A program made the position numbers and the translations under genes. The notes under the pieces were generated by a model, which saw only the letters and a list, made by a program, of their open reading frames with translations, did no database searches and was not told where the DNA came from. Source: Halieaceae bacterium (GTDB lineage Bacteria > Pseudomonadota > Gammaproteobacteria > Pseudomonadales > Halieaceae). From it: a stretch of 64,000 nucleotides of DNA. Shown piece by piece: positions 1 to 12,963 of the stretch (its first letter is position 1; the number at the start of each line of letters is the position of its first letter). Location of the stretch: the NCBI GenBank assembly GCA_902547755.1, contig CACCPA010000002.1, positions 1-64,000 on the forward strand, in the 5' to 3' direction.

Positions 1-66
1 GCGGGTCATCGGGCGGCGGTGCGTCGGGCGGAGGCTCATCGAGCTCCGGCGGGTCATCGGGCGGCG
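1..66 (+). repeat. Short direct repeat in the Gly/Ser-rich coding region
   Basis: An 18-base unit, gcgggtcatcgggcggcg, occurs at 1-18 and again at 49-66, a spacing of 48 bases (16 codons). It is embedded in other ggc/tca/tcg-rich sequence encoding Gly-Ser runs. The period is a whole number of codons, so expansion or contraction would keep the frame. It may extend left of the window. Confidence 0.7.
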
Positions 67-893
67 CATCGTCTGGCGGTGGCGCCCCGGGTGGCGGAAG
101 CCAGGGAGGCGGCTCCGGCGGCATGGAAAGCGGAGACCCTGGTGGATCGGGCGATGGTGCGATGGCAGGCGGTGACCCAGGATTCGGTGACTCCATTGGC
201 GGCGATCTCTCACTGCCCAGCCTAGTGGATGAAGAGCCGGTCTACACTGCGTCATCGAGTAGTAGCGGCAGCGGTAGTGGTTCGAGCAGTGGCTCCAGCG
301 AGGGGGGTGGTAGCTCATCAAGCAGCGGTTCGAGTGGCACCAACAATGAAAACTCATCGTCAAGCGACTCCACCGGGCAAGTTGCATCTAATGCAGGACA
401 GGCAGGCGGTACGCGCGCGCAAGGTGGTTTAGAGCCTGACTGGGGCGCCACCGACACCATGACAACAGCAGAGCGCGTTGCCGTGCTGGATAGGCAGCTC
501 GAAGAGAGCACAGGCGTATTTGATGCCATTATCCGGGAAGAGCAACGTCAGCAGCGGGAAAGCCAGCGGGAACAAGGCGCAAATACCCAAAGCTCGTCGC
601 AAAGCTCAGATGGCTCGGGAACCGAGACAAGCTCCGGCGGTCGAAATCCTTATGAAGCAGACGATCAAGGTGGATATGGCTCCGTGGGCGGCGGTATGGG
701 TGGCCGCTCCGGAGGGGCACCTGATGCCCCAGCTGTCTACGAGGCACCTGAGGACATTCCATCGGGCAATGATGATGACATTGTTGCGCGCCAGCTTCGC
801 GAGGCTGCGATGCGGGAACCTGATCCCGACATTCGTGAAGCGCTATGGAACGAATACCGAAAGTACAAAGGTATTGAGATACCCGAAGAATGA
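3..893 (+). CDS. Gly/Ser-rich low-complexity protein, 5' end outside the window
   Basis: The frame is open to the left edge, so the true start lies upstream. The visible part begins with about 110 residues dominated by Gly and Ser, with runs such as GGGSSSSSG, then a short helical stretch around TAERVAVLDRQLEEST, another Gly/Ser/Gln-rich linker, and a charged C-terminus containing DIVARQLREAAMREPDPDIR and WNEYRKYKG. The structured C-terminal 40 residues probably carry the conserved function, and the rest looks disordered. No enzyme motif is visible. The stop codon overlaps the start of the next gene by four bases (ATGA), so it belongs to the same operon as the lipoprotein and VWA genes downstream. 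Whether it has a signal peptide or membrane anchor cannot be judged because the N-terminus is missing. I do not recognise a named family. Confidence 0.8.
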   Translation, partial: GSSGGGASGGGSSSSGGSSGGASSGGGAPGGGSQGGGSGGMESGDPGGSGDGAMAGGDPGFGDSIGGDLSLPSLVDEEPVYTASSSSSGSGSGSSSGSSEGGGSSSSSGSSGTNNENSSSSDSTGQVASNAGQAGGTRAQGGLEPDWGATDTMTTAERVAVLDRQLEESTGVFDAIIREEQRQQRESQREQGANTQSSSQSSDGSGTETSSGGRNPYEADDQGGYGSVGGGMGGRSGGAPDAPAVYEAPEDIPSGNDDDIVARQLREAAMREPDPDIREALWNEYRKYKGIEIPEE

Positions 894-2080
894 TTAATCG
901 TCTTACGACACTGCTGACTCTGCTGGCATTACTCAGCGGTTGTGTTACCGAGACCGTAAAAACAACGGCAGTGCCAACACTAAGCACCTACGAGACCTCA
1001 CTCCCCAGTGATGAGGTGCTAGATATTGCGGTGGTAGTTTTTGATCCGGGCATCGCGGACATAGACCCTGAAGAAGGCATCTATCCCGAAATTAGGCGCG
1101 CTGAGGCGACGTTTATGGCGCGCGAACTCGCTCTCGTATTGGATGATCAAGGCGTTTGGGGGGCTAGTCGGGTTGTGCCCTCCTCCGAGCACATCACCGA
1201 TGTCCTAGTCACGGGGGCAATAGAGCAGTCAGATGGAGAGGCACTCTCCCTAGCGATAAGGGCGGTAGATACTCAGGGACGTATCTGGCTCGATAAACAG
1301 TACGCCGGGACGACCAGTCGGTATGCCTATCAGCAGACCCAGCGGGTCAAGAAAGATCCGTTTCTCGCTGTTTACAGGGATATCGCTAACGACTTAATTG
1401 CGGTCTTCAAATCGTTAGCGCGCAGTGATCGGCTGGCAATCAGGAATGTATCCAAGCTGAGGTTTGCCCAGAGCTTTGCGCCCGAGGCCTTCGAAGGCTA
1501 TCTCAGTGACGGCGAGGGCGCGCTGACGCGCGCGGTCCGTCTACCGGCAGAGAGTGACCCCATGATGGCCCGTATCGGTGCCATTCAGCAGCGCAACCAT
1601 ATCTTCGTCGATACGCTCCAAGGCCACTACGATAACTTCTCTGGCTCGATGGATGGCCCCTATAACGAATGGCGTCGCTTGAGCTATGAGGAAACAGTCG
1701 CACTGCGTGAGCTTGAGAACGAGGCACAGACCCAGTTAATCATGGGTGGGATTTCTTTATTGGCCGGTATCGCGGCAGCCACTTCCGACGATCGCAATGT
1801 GAGAACCGCGGGCGCCGTTGGAATTTACGCGGGCGGTGGTCTGATCAAGAGCGGCCTCGAACGCAGGGCCGAAGCCAATATTCACTCACTGGCACTCGAG
1901 GAGTTAGGGCAGTCATTGGAGGCTGAAATCACGCCACAAGTCATCGAGTTAGAAGACAGAACTATCCAGCTTTCAGGTACGATTGAGGATCAATACGGTC
2001 AGTGGCGAGAGATTCTAAGCGATATCTACGCCGCCGAAATTGCTGAGCTTCCAACCGAGTTAAGCCAGCCCTCTCCATAA
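890..2080 (+). CDS. Predicted outer-membrane lipoprotein of the VWA/ExbB-like cluster
   Basis: A 396-residue protein starting with a lipoprotein signal: a short N-region, a hydrophobic stretch LTTLLTLLALLSG, and a lipobox LLSGC with the cysteine near residue 18. The mature part has a predicted alpha/beta segment (VLDIAVVVFDPG, then DVLVTGAIEQSDGEALSLAIRAVD) that resembles periplasmic lipoproteins measuring envelope components. A Gly/Ala-rich hydrophobic segment LIMGGISLLAGIAAAT lies near residues 284-300. I do not recognise a named family. The ATG overlaps the upstream stop by four bases and the next gene starts 17 bases downstream, so it is co-transcribed with the cluster. The residue after the lipobox Cys is Val, not Asp, which does not predict inner-membrane retention, so an outer-membrane location is inferred. 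Confidence 0.85.
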   Translation: MINRLTTLLTLLALLSGCVTETVKTTAVPTLSTYETSLPSDEVLDIAVVVFDPGIADIDPEEGIYPEIRRAEATFMARELALVLDDQGVWGASRVVPSSEHITDVLVTGAIEQSDGEALSLAIRAVDTQGRIWLDKQYAGTTSRYAYQQTQRVKKDPFLAVYRDIANDLIAVFKSLARSDRLAIRNVSKLRFAQSFAPEAFEGYLSDGEGALTRAVRLPAESDPMMARIGAIQQRNHIFVDTLQGHYDNFSGSMDGPYNEWRRLSYEETVALRELENEAQTQLIMGGISLLAGIAAATSDDRNVRTAGAVGIYAGGGLIKSGLERRAEANIHSLALEELGQSLEAEITPQVIELEDRTIQLSGTIEDQYGQWREILSDIYAAEIAELPTELSQPSP

Positions 2081-2097
2081 ACGAGTCTTGCCGATAG

Positions 2098-3642
2098 ATG
2101 ACAGACGATAGCAAAGACGCTTTGCGCGCAGCGTCCTTTGAACCGAGAGCCGCCACTCATAGTACCCAAGAGGTTTCCGATACTCCTCGCCCCGTAGGCA
2201 CATGGGTAGCGCTAGCAACAGGTGCGGTGTTGCTCGGGTTTGTAGTCTTCATTTTGCCTCAGTTTGCCCCTACACCTGACAGTCAGTCTTCAGCTGCACC
2301 AAGCACTATTTCGGAAGACGCGCAAACGGCGCCTGCATCATCGACCAGTGCAGCGCAGGAGAATGCCTCGGAACGAAGCCCATTTGCGGAAGCGCAGCTG
2401 GCCAAATTCAGGCGCTCAGCGCAGGAAGCACTGCAATCATTGTTGGAGACACAGTCTCGACTCGAGTCGCGCGGTGTTGATCAATGGGCCGCTGATGACT
2501 TTTTAGCCGCTAGTGCCGTCGCTTTAGAAGGTGATTCCTTATACCGAGCACAAGATTTTGATGCGGCCGAAGCTCTGTATCAGCAGGCACTTGATTCGTT
2601 GAACGGCCTCGAAGCAAGGCTAAGCGGCGAAATCGATAGGAGGCTGGCGTTGCTACTCGACGCGATCGAGTCAGGCGATGAAGCCACAGCAGGCACTATC
2701 GCTCCGTTGCTTCAACAAATGGCGCCTGATAGCGATGCAGTGTTCGATGCTGTCGAACGCGTACCCCTCATGCCGGCCATTACAGAGCTCGAAACAGCCG
2801 CGAAGGCAAGCTTCGAGCAAGGTCGTTTGAGTAGTGCGGTATCTCAAGTCGGTGAGGCTTTGGGGCTCGACCCAGCACACCAGCGTTTGGCAAAGGTAGC
2901 TCGGCAGTACAAGTCGGCACTAACCCAGCAGCGTTTTGAAGATGCCATGACGAAAGGTTTCGCGTTATTGAGTGACAATGATTTCGCTGGCGCACGGGCT
3001 TCCTTTCAGTCGGCAAGAAATATTCTTCCCGCCGCTGATGGTCCGAAGGCGGCGCTGGCACAGCTCGGAGAGGCAGAGACCTTATCGCGCCTCAATGACT
3101 TACTTAGTCAGGCCGCTGATCTTGCGGCAAAGGAGCAGTGGGCGAAGACAGTCGAGGTTTTAGAGGCGGCGCTCGCCATTGATGCCAGTCTTGTTGAAGC
3201 GTCAGACGGCCTTAATCAAGCCCGACCGTTGGCAGAGCTCTTTGCAAAACTCGATACGATCGTCGAACAGCAAGCGCGGCTGGTTGATCCCGTTGTACTC
3301 AGCGAGGCGCAACTTTCTCTGTCAGAGGCCGAGGCCGCGCTGGCAGCGAGCGCCCAAACATCGCCTGTGCTCAAAGACAAAGTAGCGGCGGTTCGATCGG
3401 CAGTGGCTACGGCCAGTACACCGCTACCAGTGGTCATCACCTCCGATGGTCTGACGGAGATAACCATCAAGCGTGTTGCCCGCCTGGGTCCCGTCTCATC
3501 AAGAACAGTCTCGCTACGGCCCGGCCAATATCAATTTCTGGGTAGCCGCGACGGTTACCGAGACGTGTTGATCACTGCCAGTATCAACGCCACATCCGAT
3601 AATCGTATTGACGTTCGATGCGAGGAGGCGATCATTCGCTAA
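2098..3642 (+). CDS. Membrane-anchored periplasmic helical-repeat protein
   Basis: A 514-residue protein. Residues 1-32 are hydrophilic and presumably cytoplasmic. Residues about 33-54 form a single transmembrane helix (TWVALATGAVLLGFVVFIL), and the remainder is predicted periplasmic. The body from about 95 to 440 is strongly helical and alanine-rich, with TPR-like units such as DFDAAEALYQQALDSLNGL, QGRLSSAVSQVGEALGLDP and NDFAGARASFQSARNILPA. The last 70 residues switch to beta character (PVVITSDGLTEITI, SLRPGQYQFLGSRDGYRDV), which resembles a PEGA-type module like those in the next gene. It ends with TAA overlapping the next ATG by one base (TAATG), implying translational coupling. A scaffold role in the envelope complex is inferred from architecture and context only. 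Confidence 0.85.
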   Translation: MTDDSKDALRAASFEPRAATHSTQEVSDTPRPVGTWVALATGAVLLGFVVFILPQFAPTPDSQSSAAPSTISEDAQTAPASSTSAAQENASERSPFAEAQLAKFRRSAQEALQSLLETQSRLESRGVDQWAADDFLAASAVALEGDSLYRAQDFDAAEALYQQALDSLNGLEARLSGEIDRRLALLLDAIESGDEATAGTIAPLLQQMAPDSDAVFDAVERVPLMPAITELETAAKASFEQGRLSSAVSQVGEALGLDPAHQRLAKVARQYKSALTQQRFEDAMTKGFALLSDNDFAGARASFQSARNILPAADGPKAALAQLGEAETLSRLNDLLSQAADLAAKEQWAKTVEVLEAALAIDASLVEASDGLNQARPLAELFAKLDTIVEQQARLVDPVVLSEAQLSLSEAEAALAASAQTSPVLKDKVAAVRSAVATASTPLPVVITSDGLTEITIKRVARLGPVSSRTVSLRPGQYQFLGSRDGYRDVLITASINATSDNRIDVRCEEAIIR

Positions 3643-5723
3643 TGTCTAACGAGCGCAACCCATCCGAGTCTTTATCACCCACTGCATTTCAACCTCGCAG
3701 TGAAACGACAGTGGCGACAACCCGACGCATAACGCCAGCCGCCACATTACTGGTCGTAGCGGGCTTGGTCATCGCCTATGTCCTGTTCTTCTTGCTTACG
3801 GCTAGATCGGTATCAGTCACTGTGGAGTCAGAAACGACACCTACTATCGACATCTCGGGACTGCATTTACCCTTCGGTGAGCGTTTCCTGATGAGACCCG
3901 GCTCCTATGAACTCAATGTCACCGCAGAGGGATATCAGACCTACACCGGGTCTTTACGCGTAGACGATGCCGAGGTGCAGACACGGGCAGTGGTGTTAAC
4001 GCCTCTGCCCGGGACATTGATTATCGAGTCCATACCGCCATCAGCGACTGTGTCATTGAGCGGGACCGTAATCGGCGTCACGCCCTTGACCATCGATGAG
4101 ATAGACGCGGGCGAGGTAACTGTGAACTTGGTGGCCGAGCGTTATCTCCCCTATGAGACCACTATTGAGGTGACGGGAAGAACCCAAACACAGCGGTTCT
4201 CTGCCAACCTGACTCCGGGCTGGGCCCGAGTATCTGTGGAAACCATTCCTACCGAGGTCTCAGTAAGCATTGATCAGCAGAACGTTGATTGGTCGGCGGT
4301 CACATCCAGCAAACAAGTACTCGAAGTCATGCAAGGAGCGCGCGAAATCACTTTCAGTGCGCCGGGCTATATCGACGAGCTGGTCGAGCTAAAGACCGTC
4401 GCTGATACCGATGTCGACCTCGGTACTATCGAACTCACACCGGCGGCGGGGATACTTCGTTTAACTTCTGTCCCGGCGGGCGCTGTTGTCACCCGCGATG
4501 GTCGCTTTGTCGGCGCCACTCCAACTGACGTGACTATGGAACCCGCGGCACGACATCGCATCGAGCTAAGACGGGCGGGCTACTTACCCGAATCATTTAG
4601 CCTCTCGCTGGAAAAGGGTGCGAGCGTAGACCGACAAGTCGTTTTGTCGCCAGCACTTGGCGAAGTCGATATTCAGGTGACCCCCCGCAATGCCACCATT
4701 CAGGTCAATGGCGATGACCGCGGTAAGGGAAGCCAGATACTGGCCTTACCCGGTGTAGAGCAAGTAATCACCATCAGAGCGCCTGGGTATGCAAGTGTGG
4801 AACGACGGGTCACGCCGCGAGCAGGACTGAAACAGCGGATTAATGTGGCGCTGCTCACTGAAGAAGAGGCGAGAAAGGCCGCCATCAAGCCGGAGATCAC
4901 CAGCTCGGTGGGCCAAACATTGGTCTTAATCGATCCTCAGGTGAGTCCAGTCAACCAGTTCACTATGGGCGCTCCTAGACGCGATGCGGGACGAGGTGCC
5001 AACGAAGTCGAGCGACCTGTGCGTCTGACACGTGCGTTTTACATGGCGACCACCGAAGTTACGAATGCGCAGTTCCGCCAATTCACACAGAATCATGAGT
5101 CAGGACAGGCGGGAGGTAAGAGCCTAAACCGCGAACACCAACCCGCCGTGCAGCTCTCTTGGCAGCAGGCCGCCAGCTTCTGTAATTGGCTAAGCGCGCG
5201 CGAGGGGTTGCCGCTCTTTTATACCGAGCGCGATGGCATCGTCACGGGATTTGACAGCGCTTCTACCGGATACCGTCTTCCGACTGAGGCTGAGTGGGCG
5301 TTCGCTACCCGGGTACAAGGCGAAGACATCTGGCGATTTTCCTGGGGCGAAGCCTGGCCACCCGAAGATGGAAGTGCCAACCTTGCCGACGCCTCTTCCG
5401 CACTGGTCACAGGGCGTATCCTCAATGGTTACACTGACAACGTTGTGGTTAGCGCCGAGGTCGGAAAGTTTCCGCCCAACCCGAGAGGTCTATACGATAT
5501 GGGTGGTAATGTCGCTGAGTGGGTGAATGACGTGTATCGAATACCCGTGCCCAGTGAGGCGATCGAAGGGGATCCGCTAGGGGACCGTCAGGGCGATAAC
5601 TACACGATTAGGGGCGCCAGTTGGAGCTTGAGCCGTTTGCGAGAGCTTCGACTGACCTACCGTGATTATGGTGAGCGTGGGCGTGATGACGTTGGATTTA
5701 GGGTGGCCAGGTATGCAGAGTAA
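3642..5723 (+). CDS. PEGA-repeat protein with C-terminal formylglycine-generating-enzyme-like domain
   Basis: A 693-residue protein from the ATG that overlaps the upstream stop (TAATG); an in-frame ATG 24 bases earlier is less likely. One transmembrane helix at about 32-53 is followed by a periplasmic region with four or five PEGA-type repeats, recognisable by recurring units such as GTLIIESIPPSATVSLSG, ILRLTSVPAGAVVTRDGRFV and VDIQVTPRNATIQVNG, each ending in a GY or RYLP turn. From about residue 425 there is an FGE/SUMF1 fold: FTMGAPRR, ATTEVTNAQFRQF, PAVQLSWQQAASFCNWLS, YRLPTEAEWAFA, YDMGGNVAEWVND, GFRVAR. The segment that carries the two catalytic cysteines in true FGE reads GASWSLSRLRELRLTYR here and has none, so sulfatase maturation is unlikely. 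A structural or ligand-binding use of the fold is inferred. Confidence 0.9.
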   Translation: MSNERNPSESLSPTAFQPRSETTVATTRRITPAATLLVVAGLVIAYVLFFLLTARSVSVTVESETTPTIDISGLHLPFGERFLMRPGSYELNVTAEGYQTYTGSLRVDDAEVQTRAVVLTPLPGTLIIESIPPSATVSLSGTVIGVTPLTIDEIDAGEVTVNLVAERYLPYETTIEVTGRTQTQRFSANLTPGWARVSVETIPTEVSVSIDQQNVDWSAVTSSKQVLEVMQGAREITFSAPGYIDELVELKTVADTDVDLGTIELTPAAGILRLTSVPAGAVVTRDGRFVGATPTDVTMEPAARHRIELRRAGYLPESFSLSLEKGASVDRQVVLSPALGEVDIQVTPRNATIQVNGDDRGKGSQILALPGVEQVITIRAPGYASVERRVTPRAGLKQRINVALLTEEEARKAAIKPEITSSVGQTLVLIDPQVSPVNQFTMGAPRRDAGRGANEVERPVRLTRAFYMATTEVTNAQFRQFTQNHESGQAGGKSLNREHQPAVQLSWQQAASFCNWLSAREGLPLFYTERDGIVTGFDSASTGYRLPTEAEWAFATRVQGEDIWRFSWGEAWPPEDGSANLADASSALVTGRILNGYTDNVVVSAEVGKFPPNPRGLYDMGGNVAEWVNDVYRIPVPSEAIEGDPLGDRQGDNYTIRGASWSLSRLRELRLTYRDYGERGRDDVGFRVARYAE

Positions 5724-6057
5724 ATTTTGGGTTGGCGTGTTCTCATTTGTGGGTCTTGCACTCGTTGCCTTCGCGCAGGATGAAGGTACCAACGCTACGG
5801 CAACTAAGGCCGGAGCAACTCAAGCCGCACCCGCTTCTAATGGCGCCGACCCCACTACCGAGGGTAATACAGACACTACGGAAACGGCTTTGGTTAGTAT
5901 TGCAGGCGCTGTTATCGATAGCGTTGGTGGCACCCAACCGGAGGCAGCTGACCGAAACTCGGAAGAACCGGCCTCGTCGGAAACAGCGGATGACAACTAC
6001 ACTCCCACTGAGCGGATTAGCGAAGATCGATCCGTGTCTTTTCCGGTCGATATCTAA
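5713..6057 (+). CDS. Small secreted, probably disordered protein
   Basis: A 114-residue protein. I chose the ATG at 5713, which overlaps the end of the PEGA/FGE gene by 11 bases, because the sequence from there is a clean signal peptide: QSKFWVGVFSFVGLALVAFA followed by QDEG, with a type I cleavage site after AFA. The mature part is about 90 residues rich in Ala, Thr, Glu, Asp, Ser and Gly with only one hydrophobic patch (ALVSIAGAVIDSVGG). It looks acidic and largely unstructured. No family is recognised. The position between the PEGA/FGE gene and the ExbB-like gene suggests a periplasmic accessory component, which is inference. Confidence 0.7.
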   Translation: MQSKFWVGVFSFVGLALVAFAQDEGTNATATKAGATQAAPASNGADPTTEGNTDTTETALVSIAGAVIDSVGGTQPEAADRNSEEPASSETADDNYTPTERISEDRSVSFPVDI

Positions 6058-6068
6058 GGGGAATGCGC

Positions 6069-6872
6069 ATGTCTAAACCGAGAATCCCGTCAGAGTTTGC
6101 ATTCCAGGTCCTAGCATTACTCGCGGCCGTCATCGTCGTGCATGCCTTTTACGTGGGTTTGATCCGACCCTCTGCCGACGCTCAGTTGGCGGCACAAGCC
6201 GCCCTGCAAGCATCAGGAGCCGCCTTCGTACCCGAGCGATCAATCTACGTTGTCATTCGTGATTTTGAGCAGGAGGCCTGTTTCATCCTGATGATCTGGG
6301 CACTGGTGATCATGGGTCTCAAAGCATGGACGACGCGACAGGAAGCGACCATGCTCGAGCGCAACCTCATTCAGGTCACCGAGGGCACGACGCTCCTACC
6401 CCAAGATGCAAGAAATTACGCTCGCGGCATCGAAGCACTCCCGGAAACAGAGCAGGAACTGCTGTTACCACGCACACTGCTCAATGCTCTCAGCCGCTTC
6501 TCGACGACAGCGAGCATCCCTGCCGTCTCCGAGGCAGTGCGCGAACAATGCGACATTGAGGCCGACAAGCTCGACTCCGAATTATCGATGGTTCGCTACA
6601 TCAGTTGGGCCATCCCGTCGATCGGGTTTATTGGCACCGTGCGCGGCATCGGTGATGCACTTGGGCAAGCCTATAAGGCGGTTGAAGGCGATATTTCAGG
6701 TGTGACGGTAAGCCTCGGCGTCGCCTTTAACAGCACCTTCGTGGCGCTGGTCTTATCCATTGTCATCATGTTTGCGCTACATCAATTGCAGCTATCTCAG
6801 GAGCGACTGGTACTCAGTACCCAGCGTTACGTGGATAAGAAGCTTATTCGACATCTGGCGGCGCCTAAATGA
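6069..6872 (+). CDS. MotA/TolQ/ExbB-family proton channel protein
   Basis: A 267-residue protein. The ATG at 6069 is preferred over the in-frame ATG at 6063 because the purine-rich aagggg ends seven bases before it. Hydrophobic helices lie near residues 7-30 (VLALLAAVIVVHAFYVGLI) and 75-93 (CFILMIWALVIMGLKAW). A later pair carries the family signature: SWAIPSIGFIGTVRGIGDAL followed by the VSLGVAFNSTFVALVLSIVI helix. This matches the conserved channel-forming region of TolQ/ExbB/MotA, which conducts protons with an ExbD/TolR/MotB partner. The stop overlaps the next gene by four bases (ATGA). No classical ExbD, TolR or MotB gene is present, and the two membrane-anchored VWA proteins downstream are the obvious candidate partners. 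Confidence 0.88.
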   Translation: MSKPRIPSEFAFQVLALLAAVIVVHAFYVGLIRPSADAQLAAQAALQASGAAFVPERSIYVVIRDFEQEACFILMIWALVIMGLKAWTTRQEATMLERNLIQVTEGTTLLPQDARNYARGIEALPETEQELLLPRTLLNALSRFSTTASIPAVSEAVREQCDIEADKLDSELSMVRYISWAIPSIGFIGTVRGIGDALGQAYKAVEGDISGVTVSLGVAFNSTFVALVLSIVIMFALHQLQLSQERLVLSTQRYVDKKLIRHLAAPK

Positions 6873-8149
6873 GTCGCGCCTTTCTTGATCTGACGGATGC
6901 CAGCCTGACACTCAGCGTCGGCCAGCAGATCGTTCGATCTCCGGGTATTGTCCTATCTCAGGCAAATGACTTCCTTTTCGGCGACGGGGCCTTCGCGCAA
7001 CTCAAACGCAGACCCTTGGACGTGCGAACGGACATGCTCAGTCAGCTTGCTACCACGCCACTCGGCAGCACATTTGGCAACGCGCGTCACACGGCCGATT
7101 TAGTCTATGAACACCTCAAAGGCCTGTTCGAATCGAGCGATGGGGTGAATAACCTTTGCCTTATCGCACCTGGAAACCTTGAGCAGCCCCAACTGGAGTT
7201 GCTTCTGGGTATCTTGAGCTCGCTGGGAGTAAACCCCAGTGCAGTCGTCGACAGAGCGCTTCTCGCACACCCCGCGGAACTAGGCTCGGGCCTCAACCTA
7301 AACTTGCAATGGCGACAACTCGTCGTGAGCGAGGTCACTGTTGACGCCAATCTCTGTCAGGTCGACAAGATCACAGCTGTACCAGGCCTTGGCTATCTCG
7401 ATTTACTGGAACTATGCCTTGAGGAATGCGCTGATGCCTGCGTCGATCAAACACGCTTCGATCCGCGGCGAAGTGCTGAATCCGAGCAAACCCTGCTCGA
7501 TGCTCTCCCAGGCGTTCTTGCAGCACTCAAAGATCGCCCCGAAGTCTCAGTTGAGCTCGGGACAACATCATTCAAAGTCTCGAGAAGTCGTCTTGAGAAA
7601 GCAGGGCAAAAAATCACGTCGGCCATCAATGCGAAAGCAGGAGCGCTGAGCATCGACGAATCGCTATCGGTCTTTCCGGGCATCGCATTCGATGCAGTTG
7701 CCTCTATCGATTCCCTAACAGCCACCGGAGAGGATCTATTACTCGATCACTCAGATGATCAGCCGCTGACCCGCATTTCCAAACGACGGACAGCCAGCGC
7801 TGTAACACCAGCTGATGAATCAGCCGACACATCGGCAAGTGGCGACGCCATGACCGCGCCTGCCGCGAGCGACAAGATCGACAAAACGATGGTGACGGCA
7901 AGCGCTGTCCAAGGTGCGCAGCCTACGCACGTCCTTATCGACGCTGTCGCGCATCGCATTGCAGATACAGATGAGCAGGGCCTTGGCTTTGGCGTAATTA
8001 AGCGCGACGGTGTTCCCTGCATTGACGAGGCACTGCGCGACCAAATCAATGTCTTGTCGGTCTCCGGTTCGCATGATCGGCTCACGGTCGGCAGTCGTTT
8101 GTATCGTAACGACGGCAAAGAAGCCGTGCTCATTATCGTTGAGTCGTAA
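6869..8149 (+). CDS. Predicted actin/Hsp70-fold protein with C-terminal beta domain
   Basis: A 426-residue protein without signal peptide or membrane helix, so probably cytoplasmic. The first 270 residues look like a diverged actin/Hsp70 ATPase fold: AFLDLTDASLTLS near the start resembles a phosphate-1 strand, and LCLIAPGNLEQPQLELLLG with the Gly-rich GLGYLDLLELCLEEC and FDPRRSAESEQTLLDALPG resemble regions seen in Hsp70-like proteins. This is pattern recognition without alignment. Residues about 285-330 are an Ala/Ser/Asp-rich linker, and the last 80 residues form a separate compact domain with QINVLSVSGSHDRLTVGSRL. The start overlaps the channel gene's stop by four bases. It could be the cytoplasmic ATP-dependent regulator or assembly factor of the membrane complex. 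An unknown family remains possible. Confidence 0.75.
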   Translation: MSRAFLDLTDASLTLSVGQQIVRSPGIVLSQANDFLFGDGAFAQLKRRPLDVRTDMLSQLATTPLGSTFGNARHTADLVYEHLKGLFESSDGVNNLCLIAPGNLEQPQLELLLGILSSLGVNPSAVVDRALLAHPAELGSGLNLNLQWRQLVVSEVTVDANLCQVDKITAVPGLGYLDLLELCLEECADACVDQTRFDPRRSAESEQTLLDALPGVLAALKDRPEVSVELGTTSFKVSRSRLEKAGQKITSAINAKAGALSIDESLSVFPGIAFDAVASIDSLTATGEDLLLDHSDDQPLTRISKRRTASAVTPADESADTSASGDAMTAPAASDKIDKTMVTASAVQGAQPTHVLIDAVAHRIADTDEQGLGFGVIKRDGVPCIDEALRDQINVLSVSGSHDRLTVGSRLYRNDGKEAVLIIVES

Positions 8150-8152
8150 TCC

Positions 8153-9244
8153 ATGCCCCGGCGGAAACGACAGGCCAATACATTCAACCTCAGTTTTCTG
8201 GACATCATGTCCTGTGGCTTCGGTGCTGTTGTTCTCGTATTTCTGATTATCGATCACTCCATCGAGATTCAAATTCAGTCGGTAAACGCCGAGGTGCTGT
8301 CGGAGGTCGATCTGCTTGAAGAGGACATTCGAGAAGGCGAAGAGGGTCTCGTGCGGTTACGTAATGCCATTAGCAGCACCGATCTCGAGATTGTTGAAGC
8401 GCAGGGACGCGCCCGAGTTGTCACCGAGGAGCTTGATCGACTGGAGGCGTTAATCGCCTCACTGGAAGAATCGGATGTCAGTGAAACCACCGACCTTGAG
8501 GCGCTAAAAGCTGAGATCAACTCACTGGAAGAGCGTATACAGCAATTGCGCGAGGCAGCAGAGGCAGACGGTGGCCGAAGCGCGCGTGAGTTCCAAGGCG
8601 AGGGTAATCGTCAGTATCTGACCGGTCTCAAGCTCGGCGGCAACCGAATCGCGATCATGATCGATGCCTCGGCCAGCATGTTGGCGCCAGAGGTCGTCAA
8701 CGTTATCCGCTTGCGAAATCAGTCGAGTGATCGACAACGCGCCGCTCGAAAATGGGTTCAGGCCCTGGATACCGTCGATTGGCTAACGGCTCAACTGCCT
8801 ACAGGATCGCGCTACCAGATCATTCTGTTCAATACCGAAGCCCGTTTTGCCCTACCGGAGACTCAGGGCAGATGGCTTGAAGTGGCCAATAGTGATCAGG
8901 TCGAGCGAGTAATCACTTCAGTCCGCGAGACCTTGCCGTCAGGCGGCACCTCGCTTTACAACGCGTTTGAATTTCTCGATGAGCTCGATAGCAAGCCCGA
9001 TAACATTTTCATTATCACCGATGGTCTACCCACTCAGGGAAAAGATACGCCGCGAAAAAATACGGTTTCGGGTCCGGCCCGACTGAAACACTACCGCGAT
9101 GCTATCGATAAGTTACCGGCCAACGTTCCAGTCAACGTGGTGCTTTCACCCATGGAAGGTGACCCAATGGCGGCGTCCGAGTTCTGGAAGTTGGCGCAGA
9201 ATACAGGTGGGAGCTTCATGGCGCCCGCGGAGGATTGGCCGTAA
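8153..9244 (+). CDS. Membrane-anchored von Willebrand factor A protein, ExbD-like N-terminal helix (paralogue 1)
   Basis: A 363-residue protein. The N-terminus is basic (PRRKR) and is followed by one helix at about 13-33, FNLSFLDIMSCGFGAVVLVF, which carries an acidic residue (Asp17) in an F-L-D-I context. ExbD/TolR helices carry their essential Asp in a very similar F-[IL]-D-V context. Residues 40-140 are a long Glu-rich coiled coil. From about 160 a VWA domain follows with a complete metal-ion-dependent adhesion site: DASAS starting at Asp171, the Thr of PSGGTSLYNAF, and the Asp of IFIITDGLP. The basic flank predicts N-in topology with coiled coil and VWA in the periplasm. The stop overlaps the next start by one base. 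A stator-like role with the upstream channel is inferred. Confidence 0.87.
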   Translation: MPRRKRQANTFNLSFLDIMSCGFGAVVLVFLIIDHSIEIQIQSVNAEVLSEVDLLEEDIREGEEGLVRLRNAISSTDLEIVEAQGRARVVTEELDRLEALIASLEESDVSETTDLEALKAEINSLEERIQQLREAAEADGGRSAREFQGEGNRQYLTGLKLGGNRIAIMIDASASMLAPEVVNVIRLRNQSSDRQRAARKWVQALDTVDWLTAQLPTGSRYQIILFNTEARFALPETQGRWLEVANSDQVERVITSVRETLPSGGTSLYNAFEFLDELDSKPDNIFIITDGLPTQGKDTPRKNTVSGPARLKHYRDAIDKLPANVPVNVVLSPMEGDPMAASEFWKLAQNTGGSFMAPAEDWP

Positions 9245-10242
9245 TGCCCAAGCGTCGACCCGCACCTGAGATTTCACTGTCGTTTTTGGACGTCATTTGC
9301 TGTGGCTTCGGCGCTGTCATCTTGCTTCTGATGATCACCAAAACGGTGGAGCCGCAGGTCCTCGAAGAGTCCACTGTCATCGCAGAGGGGCGCGTCGCTG
9401 AGCTAACCGAACAGCTCTTTGAAATTAGAGGCGAAACAACGGTGCTCAATAGAGACCTGACGGCAAAGCGAGAGCAGATATCTGAATTTGAAGAACAGAT
9501 TGCGATTCTGCAGGGCTCGCTGGCGTCATCGAAGTCGCGTTATGACTCGCTGCAAACAACCCGCAATTCGAACAGCATCGTCGCTGAGCAACTTGCTATT
9601 GCACGACAGGAGTTAAGCGACGAAGAGGAGCGACTACTTGGACGCGATGCCGAGAAAAAGAATCAACTGATTGGCGGCATTCCCGTCGACAGCGAGTACA
9701 TCATCTTCATTATCGACACCTCGGGCTCGATGTTCTCCTATGCCTGGCAACGCATGCTCGGCGAGATGGAGGCCACACTTAACATCTACCCCAACGTGAA
9801 GGGCATTCAGGTCATGAACGACATGGGCAACTACCTTTTCTCGCGATACGCCAGGCAGTGGATACCCGATACACCCGCTCGCCGACAGCTGATCCTCCGT
9901 AATCTAGCGAACTGGAATGCGTTTTCTAACTCGTCGCCGGTCGAGGGCATTACGCAGGCTGTCCGATCCTTTTATGACCGAGACAAGAAAATCTCCATCT
10001 ACGTCTTTGGCGATGAATTTACGGGCAGATCGATTGAAGAAGTCGTGCTGACCGTCGATCGGCTGAACGCCGAGGCAGGCACTGGGGAGCGACGTGTGCG
10101 CATCCACGCGGTGGGCTTCCCCGTACAGTTTATTAGGCCGCCCGAGTTGCAGGACACGGGCATTCGTTTTGCTACACTCATGAGAGAACTGACGCATCGG
10201 AATGGTGGAACGTTTGTTGGACTCAATGACTTTAGGCCGTAA
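9244..10242 (+). CDS. Membrane-anchored von Willebrand factor A protein, ExbD-like N-terminal helix (paralogue 2)
   Basis: A 332-residue paralogue of the preceding gene, starting at the ATG that overlaps its stop (TAATG). The layout is the same: basic start PKRRP, helix EISLSFLDVICCGFGAVILL with Asp16 in F-L-D-V, coiled coil at about 40-145, then a VWA domain with DTSGS beginning at Asp158, a Thr in VEGITQAV and an Asp in VFGDEF. Outside the TM motif and the VWA core the two copies are quite different in sequence, suggesting an old duplication and a heteromeric arrangement. The downstream lipoprotein start lies inside the end of this gene. Together with paralogue 1 it could form the periplasmic part of a channel-driven complex, which is inference from motif and order. 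Confidence 0.87.
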   Translation: MPKRRPAPEISLSFLDVICCGFGAVILLLMITKTVEPQVLEESTVIAEGRVAELTEQLFEIRGETTVLNRDLTAKREQISEFEEQIAILQGSLASSKSRYDSLQTTRNSNSIVAEQLAIARQELSDEEERLLGRDAEKKNQLIGGIPVDSEYIIFIIDTSGSMFSYAWQRMLGEMEATLNIYPNVKGIQVMNDMGNYLFSRYARQWIPDTPARRQLILRNLANWNAFSNSSPVEGITQAVRSFYDRDKKISIYVFGDEFTGRSIEEVVLTVDRLNAEAGTGERRVRIHAVGFPVQFIRPPELQDTGIRFATLMRELTHRNGGTFVGLNDFRP

Positions 10243-10894
10243 GGTGCAGCGTATACTGACGCTCATTATTCTCCTCGTACTGGCGGCATGTACCAGTCGA
10301 GAAGTCATTGTGGAAGGAACATTCCCGACGCCCTTGGTGGATCCTGTGCCGGTATCGGTAGGTGTTCTGTTCACCCAGGAATTTAGAGAGCACGAGCTCG
10401 TCGATGATGCCACGGGTCGTGGTGAGGTCAGCTGGCGGGTCAGCACAGGCACAGCACAAGTTGAGTTCTGGTCTACCCTCTTCCCAGCGTTCTTCCAGAA
10501 TGTGGTGTTCATTGAGAGCTACGAAGATCTGCAGACCTATGATGTCGACGCTGTTCTCATTCCACAGGTGGCCGATGTGCAGTACGCCATTCCCTTGTAC
10601 ACCAACGTTAAAGTGTACGAGATCTGGATGCGCTACAACCTAGCACTGGTTGAGCCCGAGCAAATTATCGATGAAGAAAATGCCACCATCTCGCTAGAAA
10701 ACATGCAGCCCTTTGCCGAGTGGCCACTGACAGCCTACGGAAAAACGCCCACCGCCTTCATGCAGTCAGACATCGATGCCGTCAACTTGGCTGCCGTCAT
10801 GGCCCTCCGCGATGCAGGTGCCAATTTTATCACTAGCTTCCTGCGTGTGCCGGGCGTAATGGATTGGATTGAAAACCCCGAGGAGGCTCAATGA
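10226..10894 (+). CDS. Predicted lipoprotein of the VWA/ExbB-like cluster
   Basis: A 222-residue protein starting at the ATG inside the end of the upstream VWA gene; another in-frame ATG at 10202 would add eight residues. The N-terminus has KVQRILTLIILLVLAAC, a lipoprotein signal with lipobox LAAC. The mature protein has an alternating beta pattern (VPVSVGVLFTQEF, VEFWSTLFPAFFQNVVFIESY, VDAVLIPQVADVQYAIPLY) reminiscent of small lipoproteins that associate with envelope assemblies. The pattern of a short conserved strand, FPAFFQNVV and a final helix resembles predicted outer-membrane lipoproteins of unknown function. The stop overlaps the next gene by four bases (ATGA). No named family is recognised. 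Confidence 0.82.
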   Translation: MTLGRKVQRILTLIILLVLAACTSREVIVEGTFPTPLVDPVPVSVGVLFTQEFREHELVDDATGRGEVSWRVSTGTAQVEFWSTLFPAFFQNVVFIESYEDLQTYDVDAVLIPQVADVQYAIPLYTNVKVYEIWMRYNLALVEPEQIIDEENATISLENMQPFAEWPLTAYGKTPTAFMQSDIDAVNLAAVMALRDAGANFITSFLRVPGVMDWIENPEEAQ

Positions 10895-11550
10895 GGCGCA
10901 CATTGCTCTCTGGCTTGATGCTCGGTGGTCTACTTGGCGGCTGTGTGACCGCCAATGTCGATGAAATGACATTCGATGCACCTGTCGCGGGTATGACGGA
11001 TGGCAGCATTGTCATTCTTGGTCGGCGTCATGCGCCTGACTACGATACCGAGCCCGATTTTATCGACTGCATTGGCAATCACATCAGTCGCGGCAGCGAG
11101 AGCATCAGCGTGATCCCCGAGCGACAATTTGTCGATGCCCTATACCCATGGTTTGAGCCGAGGACTGCGCCTCTCAGTATTGAGAGCGTTGGCCGACTAA
11201 TGATCCTCCCCAGCGTAGCAAACAAACTGGAGGATCTGGGCCTCAATTACATGATCTGGATTGATGGCCGAACCCAAGACACCAACAGCAGTGGCTCCAT
11301 GACCTGTGGTATTGGACCAACGGGCGCCGGATGCTTTGGTTTTGGTACCTGGGGCACCGAGTCCGAATACGAAGCCACTATATGGAACTTTGACGACGGG
11401 GCGGAGGTCGGAAAGATGAGTGCCTTAACCAGTGGACAAAGCTACATGCCTGCCGTTGTTGTTCCGATTCCGATCATTGCGCCCGTTCAGGACACCGCCT
11501 GCGACAGCCTGGGCACCCAGCTACTGCAGTACCTGTCTGCCGGGTCGTAA
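10891..11550 (+). CDS. Predicted lipoprotein of the VWA/ExbB-like cluster
   Basis: A 219-residue protein with a lipoprotein signal, RRTLLSGLMLGGLLGGC, whose lipobox cysteine is near residue 18. The mature part includes DGSIVILGRRHAPDYDTEPD, then CIGNHISRGSESISVIPERQ, and a Gly/Cys-rich strand region MTCGIGPTGAGCFGFG. The four cysteines besides the lipobox may form disulfides in the periplasm. No enzyme motif is seen and no family name can be given. The start overlaps the upstream lipoprotein by four bases and only three bases separate it from the M48 protease gene, so it is part of the same transcript. Confidence 0.82.
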   Translation: MRRTLLSGLMLGGLLGGCVTANVDEMTFDAPVAGMTDGSIVILGRRHAPDYDTEPDFIDCIGNHISRGSESISVIPERQFVDALYPWFEPRTAPLSIESVGRLMILPSVANKLEDLGLNYMIWIDGRTQDTNSSGSMTCGIGPTGAGCFGFGTWGTESEYEATIWNFDDGAEVGKMSALTSGQSYMPAVVVPIPIIAPVQDTACDSLGTQLLQYLSAGS

Positions 11551-11553
11551 GCC

Positions 11554-12963
11554 ATGAAACGACTTTTAGTCTCGCTCTGCTTCACCACCCTGATCGCAGG
11601 CTGCGCAGGTTCATCGACGGTTACCGTCGGTGGGCGGCCTGTCAGTATTCCAACCGATGCTGCTGAAGAGCACGAGAAGCTGATTGAGAGCATCGGGATC
11701 TATGACGACCCCGAGTTACAGGCCTATATTGACGAGATCGGTGCGCGATTAGTCGCTAACTCCAGCATGCCCAACCAGGAGTTCACCTTTACGCTGCTAG
11801 ACTCGCCTGACATCAATGCGTTCGCCCTGCCCGGCGGTCTCATCTATATCAACCGAGGTTTGCTCGCCTACCTCGATAACGAGGCAGAACTCGCGGGCGT
11901 GATTGCGCACGAGATTGGGCATATCACCGAGCGGCACCACTCCCGCAGAAAAACGCAAACCATCACCAATCAGATAGCGGCGGTCTCAGCCGGTATCCTA
12001 ACCGGCTCGGGTGACTTGGTTGACGCAGTAAGCATGTATGGCGCAGAAATCATCTCGGGCTTCGGTCGCGATATGGAGCTCGAGGCGGATGCGGCCGGCG
12101 CTGAATTCATGCACAAAAGCGGATACGACGCCGATGCCTTGTTATCGGTCATCGGTGTTCTTAAAGATCAGGAGCGCTACCGCAAAGCGGTCGCCAAGGC
12201 CTCGGGTAAACCCTCTGGCACCTACCACGGGCTGTATGCCAGCCACCCAAGAAATGACTTGCGACTGCAAACCGTGATTAAGACAGCCAACAGCCTGGAT
12301 CTCGACACGATGCCCGAGAACCCAGAGTTGCCTGGCCGGTTCAGGCAAGAAACCGAAGGAATGGTCATCGGTGCGAGCGCCGAGGCGCAAAGTGATCCTC
12401 TTCGGTACTACCACAACAAACTGGATTTTACGTTTGAGCACCCTGAGGACTGGGTTGTCACGGCGACGACGCGGGAAATTGTGGCGAAAGCCCCTGATTC
12501 CGATGCAGCGCTCAAAATCAAAATTGCTAAGGTAGACCCCGATAAAAGCCCCGATGACGCACTTTCCGAACTTGCCTCTGGCGAGGTCAGTGGGCAGGAG
12601 TCGATCGAGAACGAAGGCCTGAAGGGAGCGACCGGCCTGGCAAGCGCTGGCGAGGTTCAGAAGCGTTTAGGAATTGTTGATCACCGATTCCGCTTTTTGT
12701 TTGAAGGCGAAGCCAGCGACTTCAGTGCTGCTGACGAGGGCTTCAAAACCATCATCACCTCTTTCCGACCCCTCTTTGCGCGAGAGAAAAAGCGTGGCGA
12801 AAGCCACGTCCTAAACTACGTACAAGTACCGAGGGGTGCCACTTTCGGATCGCTGAGCTCGGGCGTTCGAGTGCCCGACGCGGAGAACCAATTGCGCTTG
12901 ATCAACGGCTACTACCCCAGCGGCGAGCCACGCACCGGAGATTGGTTAAAAGTTCTTCGATAG
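11554..12963 (+). CDS. M48-family metalloprotease lipoprotein (BepA/LoiP-like)
   Basis: A 469-residue protein with a lipoprotein signal (KRLLVSLCFTTLIAGC). The peptidase domain follows at about 40-250: the zinc motif is HEIGH in GVIAHEIGHITERHH, with the downstream glutamate in GFGRDMELEADAAG and the family's SHPRNDLRLQ signature. Family members such as BepA degrade or assemble outer-membrane proteins, including LptD, from the periplasm. Residues 270-400 form an added domain of unknown type, and the C-terminal 60 residues (VPRGATFGSLSSGV, ENQLRLINGYYPSGEPRTGD) resemble the small C-terminal module of other M48 lipoproteins. It sits three bases after the last lipoprotein of the VWA cluster and is the last gene before a 59-base gap containing a weak hairpin. 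It may be a quality-control protease for that complex, or simply adjacent. Confidence 0.9.
   Translation: MKRLLVSLCFTTLIAGCAGSSTVTVGGRPVSIPTDAAEEHEKLIESIGIYDDPELQAYIDEIGARLVANSSMPNQEFTFTLLDSPDINAFALPGGLIYINRGLLAYLDNEAELAGVIAHEIGHITERHHSRRKTQTITNQIAAVSAGILTGSGDLVDAVSMYGAEIISGFGRDMELEADAAGAEFMHKSGYDADALLSVIGVLKDQERYRKAVAKASGKPSGTYHGLYASHPRNDLRLQTVIKTANSLDLDTMPENPELPGRFRQETEGMVIGASAEAQSDPLRYYHNKLDFTFEHPEDWVVTATTREIVAKAPDSDAALKIKIAKVDPDKSPDDALSELASGEVSGQESIENEGLKGATGLASAGEVQKRLGIVDHRFRFLFEGEASDFSAADEGFKTIITSFRPLFAREKKRGESHVLNYVQVPRGATFGSLSSGVRVPDAENQLRLINGYYPSGEPRTGDWLKVLR

Follow-up and report, generated by a model that had tools for sequence, protein, structure and literature searches.

The gene cluster in this report lies at the start of the window analyzed here, a stretch of 64,000 nucleotides that forms bases 1-64000 of contig CACCPA010000002.1 (assembly GCA_902547755.1) from a Halieaceae bacterium whose genome is 72% complete and whose named relatives put it close to Luminiphilus. 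The cluster has twelve genes, named g1 to g12, and encodes a real, widely conserved envelope system. We consider it likely that this system contains an ion-driven motor of the 5:2 type, with a heterodimer of two VWA proteins, VWA1 and VWA2, as its axle, that reaches outer-membrane lipoproteins. An initial annotation of this DNA had placed the genes close together on the plus strand, and a check of the open reading frames (ORFs) confirmed that all are open on that strand at the positions first given, with junctions of 1-17 base overlaps or 3-17 base gaps when the likeliest starts are used. That annotation spoke of ten genes, its own list held 11, and the M48 protease gene g12, which follows the region it covered, belongs to the cluster too. 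Because the window opens at the very first base of the contig, g1 lacks its 5' part.

The product of g6 (6063..6872) is a channel of the MotA/TolQ/ExbB type, as had been proposed: its match to the Pfam family MotA_ExbB scores 51.5 bits (1e-13), where the cut-off is 22.9. Two threonines, T192 (6636-6638) and T225 (6735-6737), are each present in 118 of 118 alignment rows, and the stretch that holds them aligns with TolQ at an E value of 0.03; we take them to correspond to pore residues of TolQ and ExbB. The protein does not reach the TolQ equivalog of NCBIfam (30.6 bits against a cut-off of 221), and in a tree that includes 29 other MotA_ExbB proteins, drawn from its own and related genomes, it stands well apart from them with 100/100 support, on a long branch, for which the tool warns that long branches meet. 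The initial annotation saw no classical ExbD or TolR in the cluster, and none was found there in the genome at hand, where PF02472 matches none of the cluster proteins at E values up to 10; the only two matches in this 72%-complete genome are on another contig. At G000:C4:6339-8108, two MotA_ExbB-type genes and two ExbD genes stand in a row.

The VWA proteins are encoded by g8 (VWA1, 8153..9244) and g9 (VWA2, 9244..10242, with a possible TTG start at 9235). Each has an N-terminal helix with an invariant aspartate (Asp17 of VWA1, 8201-8203; in VWA2, 9289-9291), a coiled coil, and a VWA domain. The initial annotation had called both genes VWA proteins; g8 is above the cut-off of the Pfam family VWA_2, and g9 is below it (16.0 versus 27 bits) and keeps the transmembrane helix and the MIDAS residues. 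A VWA2 profile run against PDB sequences gave no informative chain. The MIDAS-type residues are nearly fixed in both alignments: in VWA1, D171 and D290 are each kept in 125 of 126 rows, S173 and S175 in all 126, and T266 in 122; in VWA2, D161, S163, and S165 are kept in 126 of 126 and D260 in 125. The two N-terminal helices follow the approximate consensus SFLDxxxCGFGAxxLLxxI and are preceded by basic residues. The helix aspartate is found in 121 of the 121 VWA1 rows that have a letter at this position (126 rows, 5 gaps) and in 126 of 126 VWA2 rows, and at four loci where the called VWA1 start falls in or beside the motif, the in-frame DNA encodes FLDI in all four. These helices, together with the last helices of the channel, are among the best-conserved stretches, which is not so for the single helices of g3 and g4.

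Relatives were sought with the VWA2 alignment in one genome per species (84,980 species). At least 562 were found, and the best 80, which include Halieaceae, Microbulbifer, Colwellia, Thalassotalea, and Pseudoalteromonas, were fetched. Of their loci, 48 are longer than 20.5 kb (the long loci), and having been chosen by VWA2 all 48 contain it by construction. All twelve genes are present in 46 of the 48, one being without g7 and one without g12, so that g1-g6 and g8-g11 occur in 48 each and g7 and g12 in 47 each. We count g12 as part of the unit because of these 47 occurrences; the two genes that follow it occur in 11 and 5 of the 48 and were rejected as cluster members on these counts. Other genomes contributed 19 loci, 16 from the same genus and 3 from other families, and the genes found in them always stand in one order; L037, which lies at the end of a contig, begins past g5, and L049 stops at g10. 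Within the genus, a strong channel match is present in 28 of 36 other genomes and in 12 of the 12 that are at least 90% complete.

The initial annotation had proposed that co-occurrence be examined across genomes, and the families do occur together far outside close relatives. In a random sample of the class, the VWA2 profile matches 29 of 370 genomes, our own included, at E values up to 1e-10, and in a random sample of the phylum it matches 12 of 397 at E values up to 1e-7, seven of them from one genus of another class. A separate search with the channel profile (E up to 1e-9) returned exactly the same 12 of 397 genomes; since six genera are involved, these are not 12 independent events. The sample loci were likewise picked by the VWA2 profile (G133 and G221 of the class sample by VWA1-type matches near contig ends), and 27 were examined: 20 of the 28 class matches other than our own genome and 7 of the 11 phylum matches. 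Six with short upstream sequence were set aside, leaving 21 with at least 7 kb upstream of VWA2. VWA1 accompanies VWA2 in 48 of 48 long loci and in 21 of 21 sample loci, both sets being chosen by VWA2. Also present in all 21 are g3 and g4; g5 was found in 14, g7 in 13, g10 in 6, and g11 and g12 in 4 each. The core that recurs in the random samples is g1, g2, g3, g4, the channel, VWA1, and VWA2. In the second class, where no other member family appears, g1, g2, g3, g4, g6, g8, and g9 are found in five of six loci, the sixth being short. A purely genus-level cluster is rejected by these matches in the class and phylum samples. Phyla beyond Pseudomonadota, of which PMC12204202 names Verrucomicrobia, were covered through plasmid records and the best-80 VWA2 list. 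One genome with a full cluster (L044) also carries a second, minimal copy (L050, G015:C18:1-17000) with a channel that is 39% identical; of the families searched, this copy holds only g2, g3, g4, g6, g8, and g9. A further protein family lies near the cluster at 5 of 24 examined loci (L144, L148, L155, L158, and L159), and its longest member (L144:5572-7257) is repeat-rich by eye.

Judging from sequence, the VWA pair probably replaces ExbD as the partner of the channel, and the grounds for this role as axle are position, aspartate, conservation, and linkage, not any homology that was detected. Several results weigh against the proposed motor. With hhalign, the VWA helices compare no better with ExbD proteins than do four control helices, and with an ungapped ExbD matrix 453 and 416 of 751 other transmembrane proteins score above the medians of VWA1 and VWA2, respectively. 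A MotB matrix, in which aspartate falls on aspartate in the rows printed, puts 30 of the 751 above the VWA1 median (upper 4%) and 117 above that of VWA2 (upper 16%); the matrices were built from 30 of 31 ExbD loci and 13 of 30 MotB loci, the rest being dropped for misfits of motif expression or ORF choice. Neither ExbD nor MotB was found by Pfam in 10 fragments. Among nine fragments submitted to PADLOC, the only model returned was ZorB, in two of six VWA fragments (E values of 0.024 and 0.049) and in one from Rhizobium (0.010), and the support that the MotB and ZorB comparisons give is weak. In the 21 sample loci the channel was found in 20, g2 in 19, and g1 in 18, and so not in one, two, and three of them, respectively. 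At two loci of the first class, L160 and L161, the channel gene sits after VWA2 and not before g7, and the gene order is thus not absolute. In the literature searched, we found no experiment on this system and no phenotype.

The motor core was already predicted in print in 2025. In section 8 and the legend of Fig. 4c,d, Williams-Jones et al. (PMC12204202) describe a vWA family, mostly in heterologous pairs, that co-occurs with tolQ homologues in the absence of tolR and exbD and is predicted to form a motor (TPH-vWA). Their AlphaFold 3 models show a trans-pore helix with a conserved aspartate ringed by threonines; the authors assign this family no function. The cluster described here has in common with the motors of that section a TolQ-like channel, a heterologous pair of transmembrane vWA proteins, the lack of TolR and ExbD, the helix aspartate, and an occurrence in Proteobacteria, a match made by description and not by alignment to their Idiomarina proteins. 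Calling the system undescribed, as the initial annotation did, is no longer apt for the motor core and holds for the rest of the cluster: PEGA, formylglycine, and Hsp70 have 0 occurrences in the main text of PMC12204202, of which Fig. 4c may show neighbours. What we add to the published core are the lipoproteins, the scaffold, the tag protein, and the core gene set. No other description of the assembled machine was found in the literature searched, a coverage outside of which lie most subscription journals and bioRxiv preprints.

The passages of PMC12204202 on vWA proteins also hold the precedent for a different arrangement, in which the VWA proteins would sit laterally on the channel, in the manner of TolA and TonB, and an ordinary ExbD or TolR of the genome would be the axle. 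A second vWA family is predicted there to bind the channel's side, and the authors state that deletion phenotypes have not been reported for it. The genome does have ExbD genes elsewhere, and the comparisons above do not prove an ExbD-like VWA helix. The aspartate, however, is invariant in both VWA helices, no ExbD was found in the cluster of our own genome or named in the Pfam scan, and g6 is far from the other MotA_ExbB proteins of these genomes. We regard side-riding VWA proteins as distinctly unlikely.

Relatives of the channel, with different neighbors, occur on plasmids. Among 72,556 plasmid records there is no VWA2 match at E≤1e-5, and no record covers 80% of g4, the matches shown bearing mostly FGE-type names; four distant channels were found. 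The one on Rhizobium leguminosarum plasmid pRlBT01d (L233:3958-15805) is 29% identical to g6 over 197 amino acids. It is followed by a protein of 245 amino acids with an N-terminus like the VWA2 helix, including the aspartate (BLASTP E value of 0.014 in a single comparison), and no VWA match. The same locus has a Ser/Thr-kinase-like ORF (by eye, on the opposite strand), a PP2C phosphatase, and ORFs of 180 amino acids and of 1610 amino acids, the latter Gly/Ser-rich. On Anabaena plasmid pANACY.03 (L234:7650-10229), the channel matches ZorA1 at 1.7e-8 and is accompanied by a 153-amino-acid protein with a weak ExbD match (0.0036) and a helix without aspartate, and by a 231-amino-acid protein with an SFLDI helix. 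From reading the proteins, Microcystis plasmid p1 (L235:5539-8139) has the same three-gene arrangement, and the SFLDI protein has 231-236 amino acids across both plasmids. The Anabaena locus has type III-B CRISPR genes next to it and viperin beyond them, and that of Microcystis has DNA methylase, SLATT, and helicase genes as neighbors; possibly these channel and helix-pair loci are a two-axle defence system. In the tree, the Rhizobium, Anabaena, and Microcystis channels form one group, which falls on the same side as g6. A similar helix joined to a different outer domain and found with one kind of channel, as on these three plasmids, fits the helix as the channel's partner.

Such neighbors raise the question of whether the chromosomal cluster is itself a defence system of the Zorya type. 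The resemblance to ZorAB consists of weak matches, of g6 to ZorA2 (E value of 0.033) and of the VWA1 helix to ZorB models, together with the CRISPR and viperin genes (Anabaena) and the methylase and helicase genes (Microcystis) beside the related plasmid pairs. Against these stand the strong channel match in 12 of 12 same-genus genomes at least 90% complete, which makes the channel a core gene of its genus, a gene order conserved over two classes, the presence of lipoproteins, and the lack of any other Zorya part among the matches of 9 of 12 proteins scanned. A role in defence is highly improbable for the cluster.

Two membrane proteins would form its scaffold, g3 (2098..3642) and g4 (3642..5723, in an ORF that opens at 3618), each with one transmembrane helix by eye. 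The TPR-like stretch of g3 is matched by TPR_2 at 5e-6, with 26.7 bits just under the cut-off of 27; its C-terminal part is PEGA-like by eye, and the last 68 amino acids have no Pfam match. In g4, as had been noted at first, PEGA repeats (five stretches) and an FGE domain are combined in one protein, both being named by Pfam. The best PDB matches of g4 are two chains labeled "Lipoprotein, putative" (8e-17) and two PorK/GldK chains (1.2e-16), and FGE enzymes come next, from 4.5e-10. FGE uses a pair of cysteines; the FGE part of g4 has one conserved cysteine, so enzymatic action is unlikely. Type IX secretion (GldLM/PorLM with PorK/GldK) likewise has a 5:2-type motor, GldLM, according to the relevant part of PMC9389320, and an FGE-fold partner; g4 differs in its transmembrane anchor and PEGA repeats. 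The GldK equivalog is not reached by g4 (96 bits versus a cut-off of 350), the GldJ model, which like that of GldK matches through the FGE domain, is also below its cut-off, and NCBIfam gave no match to PorL, PorM, PorN, or SprA in 10 of 12 cluster proteins scanned (g1 and g5 left out).

The lipoprotein g2 (890..2080) is predicted to have a FlgT/PelC/TolB-N/CsgG-like fold at residues ~36-186. Its model has a mean predicted local distance difference test score (pLDDT) of 75, with the blocks of residues 31-190 mostly >85 and four at 66-74; the fold domain is followed by long helices that include an apolar, Gly-rich stretch, a part predicted with low confidence. It matches FlgT with a Z score of 10.6 (134 residues aligned), PelC with 9.8 (113), TolB with 9.4 (102), and CsgG with 8.8 (138). 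Since similar scores (9.9 to 8.5) are reached by other proteins too, including several lipoproteins, with prolyl-tRNA synthetase reaching ~6.7, a fold class is supported and not one family. The g2 profile run against PDB sequences gave no FlgT/PelC/TolB/CsgG-type chain and no informative chain. Several proteins of the FlgT/PelC/TolB-N/CsgG type form rings. Tol-Pal resembles the cluster in its TolQ-type channel, its TPR-like protein, and a TolB-N-like fold, here in g2; the cluster differs in that no TolR, TolA, TolB propeller, or Pal is named in the Pfam and NCBIfam scans and in that g6 forms a separate clade.

The incomplete g1 (3..893) is Gly/Ser-rich and probably a lipoprotein. Its C-terminal stretch is conserved (DDDxVARQxREAAMRExDPxxREKLWxEYRKYK). 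Of nine full-length relatives, six contain the Ser/Gly linker and, by eye, begin with a lipobox-like sequence, which the three short ones lack; in the second class, the members are short and have no linker. Two more lipoproteins, g10 (10226..10894) and g11 (10891..11550), are accessory. The small protein g5 (5713..6057) has a signal-peptide-like start, a variable linker, and a fixed C-terminus of the SEDxSVSFPxDI type, ending in DI in 105 of 106 members; the longer tag fits 86 of 106. As a general sorting signal the tag was rejected, since in four genomes one strict DNA pattern, which covers neither TAG stops nor looser tags, has no occurrence outside g5.

The actin/Hsp70 fold first suggested for g7 (6869..8149) is borne out by its predicted structure (mean pLDDT of 86), which has the fold of the Hsp70 nucleotide-binding domain (Z score of 23.3, root mean square deviation of 3.3, 292 residues aligned). 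It lacks the canonical phosphate motifs: in the stretches searched, 0 of 111 members have both in strict form and 8 of 111 have a loose second motif. One loop aspartate, Asp10, is conserved in 101 of 106 rows. With 13 occurrences in the 21 sample loci, g7 is accessory. The fold thus fits the cytoplasmic control that the initial annotation gave to this protein, whereas the missing phosphate motifs and the patchy occurrence do not. The M48 metalloprotease g12 (11554..12963), with a lipoprotein-like start, is accessory as well; the nearest NCBIfam model is BepA (118 bits against a cut-off of 570). In many species the cluster is linked to such a BepA-like protease and to the Hsp70-fold protein, which speaks for a sensor, in which the channel and the VWA pair would report envelope strain and these two proteins would act on the signal. 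Both are accessory, however (g7 in 13 and g12 in 4 of 21 sample loci), and the Pfam scan names no signalling output domain in the core, which makes a sensor very unlikely.

The VWA heads and lipoproteins also bring to mind a motor for gliding or surface translocation, similar to Agl/Glt, that would exert ion-driven force on outer-membrane lipoproteins gripping the surface. In the relevant part of PMC9389320, AglR with the two MotB homologues AglQ and AglS sets a precedent for one channel gene with two axle-type genes, and the gliding lipoproteins CglB and CglD bear VWA domains, as stated in part of PMC4488436. The MIDAS-type residues are conserved here, and this fits metal-dependent binding, which supports in part the metal-dependent adhesion proposed initially. 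The topology should place the VWA domains in the periplasm, not at the surface, and the general Pfam and NCBIfam scans of the cluster proteins give no Glt-type name. AglQ and AglS, moreover, carry TolR-like peptidoglycan-binding domains (PMC9389320, same part) where the cluster has VWA. A gliding motor is in our view unlikely.

An ion-driven machine spanning the envelope, which the initial annotation had suggested, remains the likeliest reading, with the twin VWA proteins as channel partners. Starting from what was observed, namely, the gene linkage, the conserved motor residues, the predicted folds of g2 and g7, and the nearest relatives of g4, we infer that the proteins form a complex, in what stoichiometry they do so, and which ion drives it, and further that the lipoproteins sit in the outer membrane, how force is passed along, and what the output is. 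A pentamer of g6 would enclose the N-terminal helices of the VWA1/VWA2 heterodimer, and the invariant VWA aspartates would act in place of the aspartate of ExbD, TolR, or MotB. The flow of protons (or sodium ions) would turn or strain the VWA pair, whose coiled coils and periplasmic heads would hand the force to the inner-membrane-anchored TPR/PEGA/FGE scaffold of g3 and g4 and also to the outer-membrane lipoproteins g2 and g1 and, in many species, g10 and g11. As the output, something at the outer membrane would be moved or remodelled. More tentatively, and at somewhat less than even chances, this may be a complete trans-envelope machine distinct from Ton, Tol, Agl, type IX secretion, and Zorya, in which an obligate VWA1/VWA2 heterodimer as axle drives an FGE/PEGA scaffold together with g2, an outer-membrane lipoprotein that would form a ring, and g1 would be a TonB in reverse orientation, with its anchor in the outer membrane and its conserved C-terminal helix hooking the motor.

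If true, the proposed motor would give marine bacteria a further way to power outer-membrane work, by an axle that combines two different VWA proteins. With such a heterodimer, the two aspartates of a 5:2 motor could be mutated one at a time, which is hard in homodimeric motors. The parts list also extends the published prediction of a motor core to a system in which one can look for the output.

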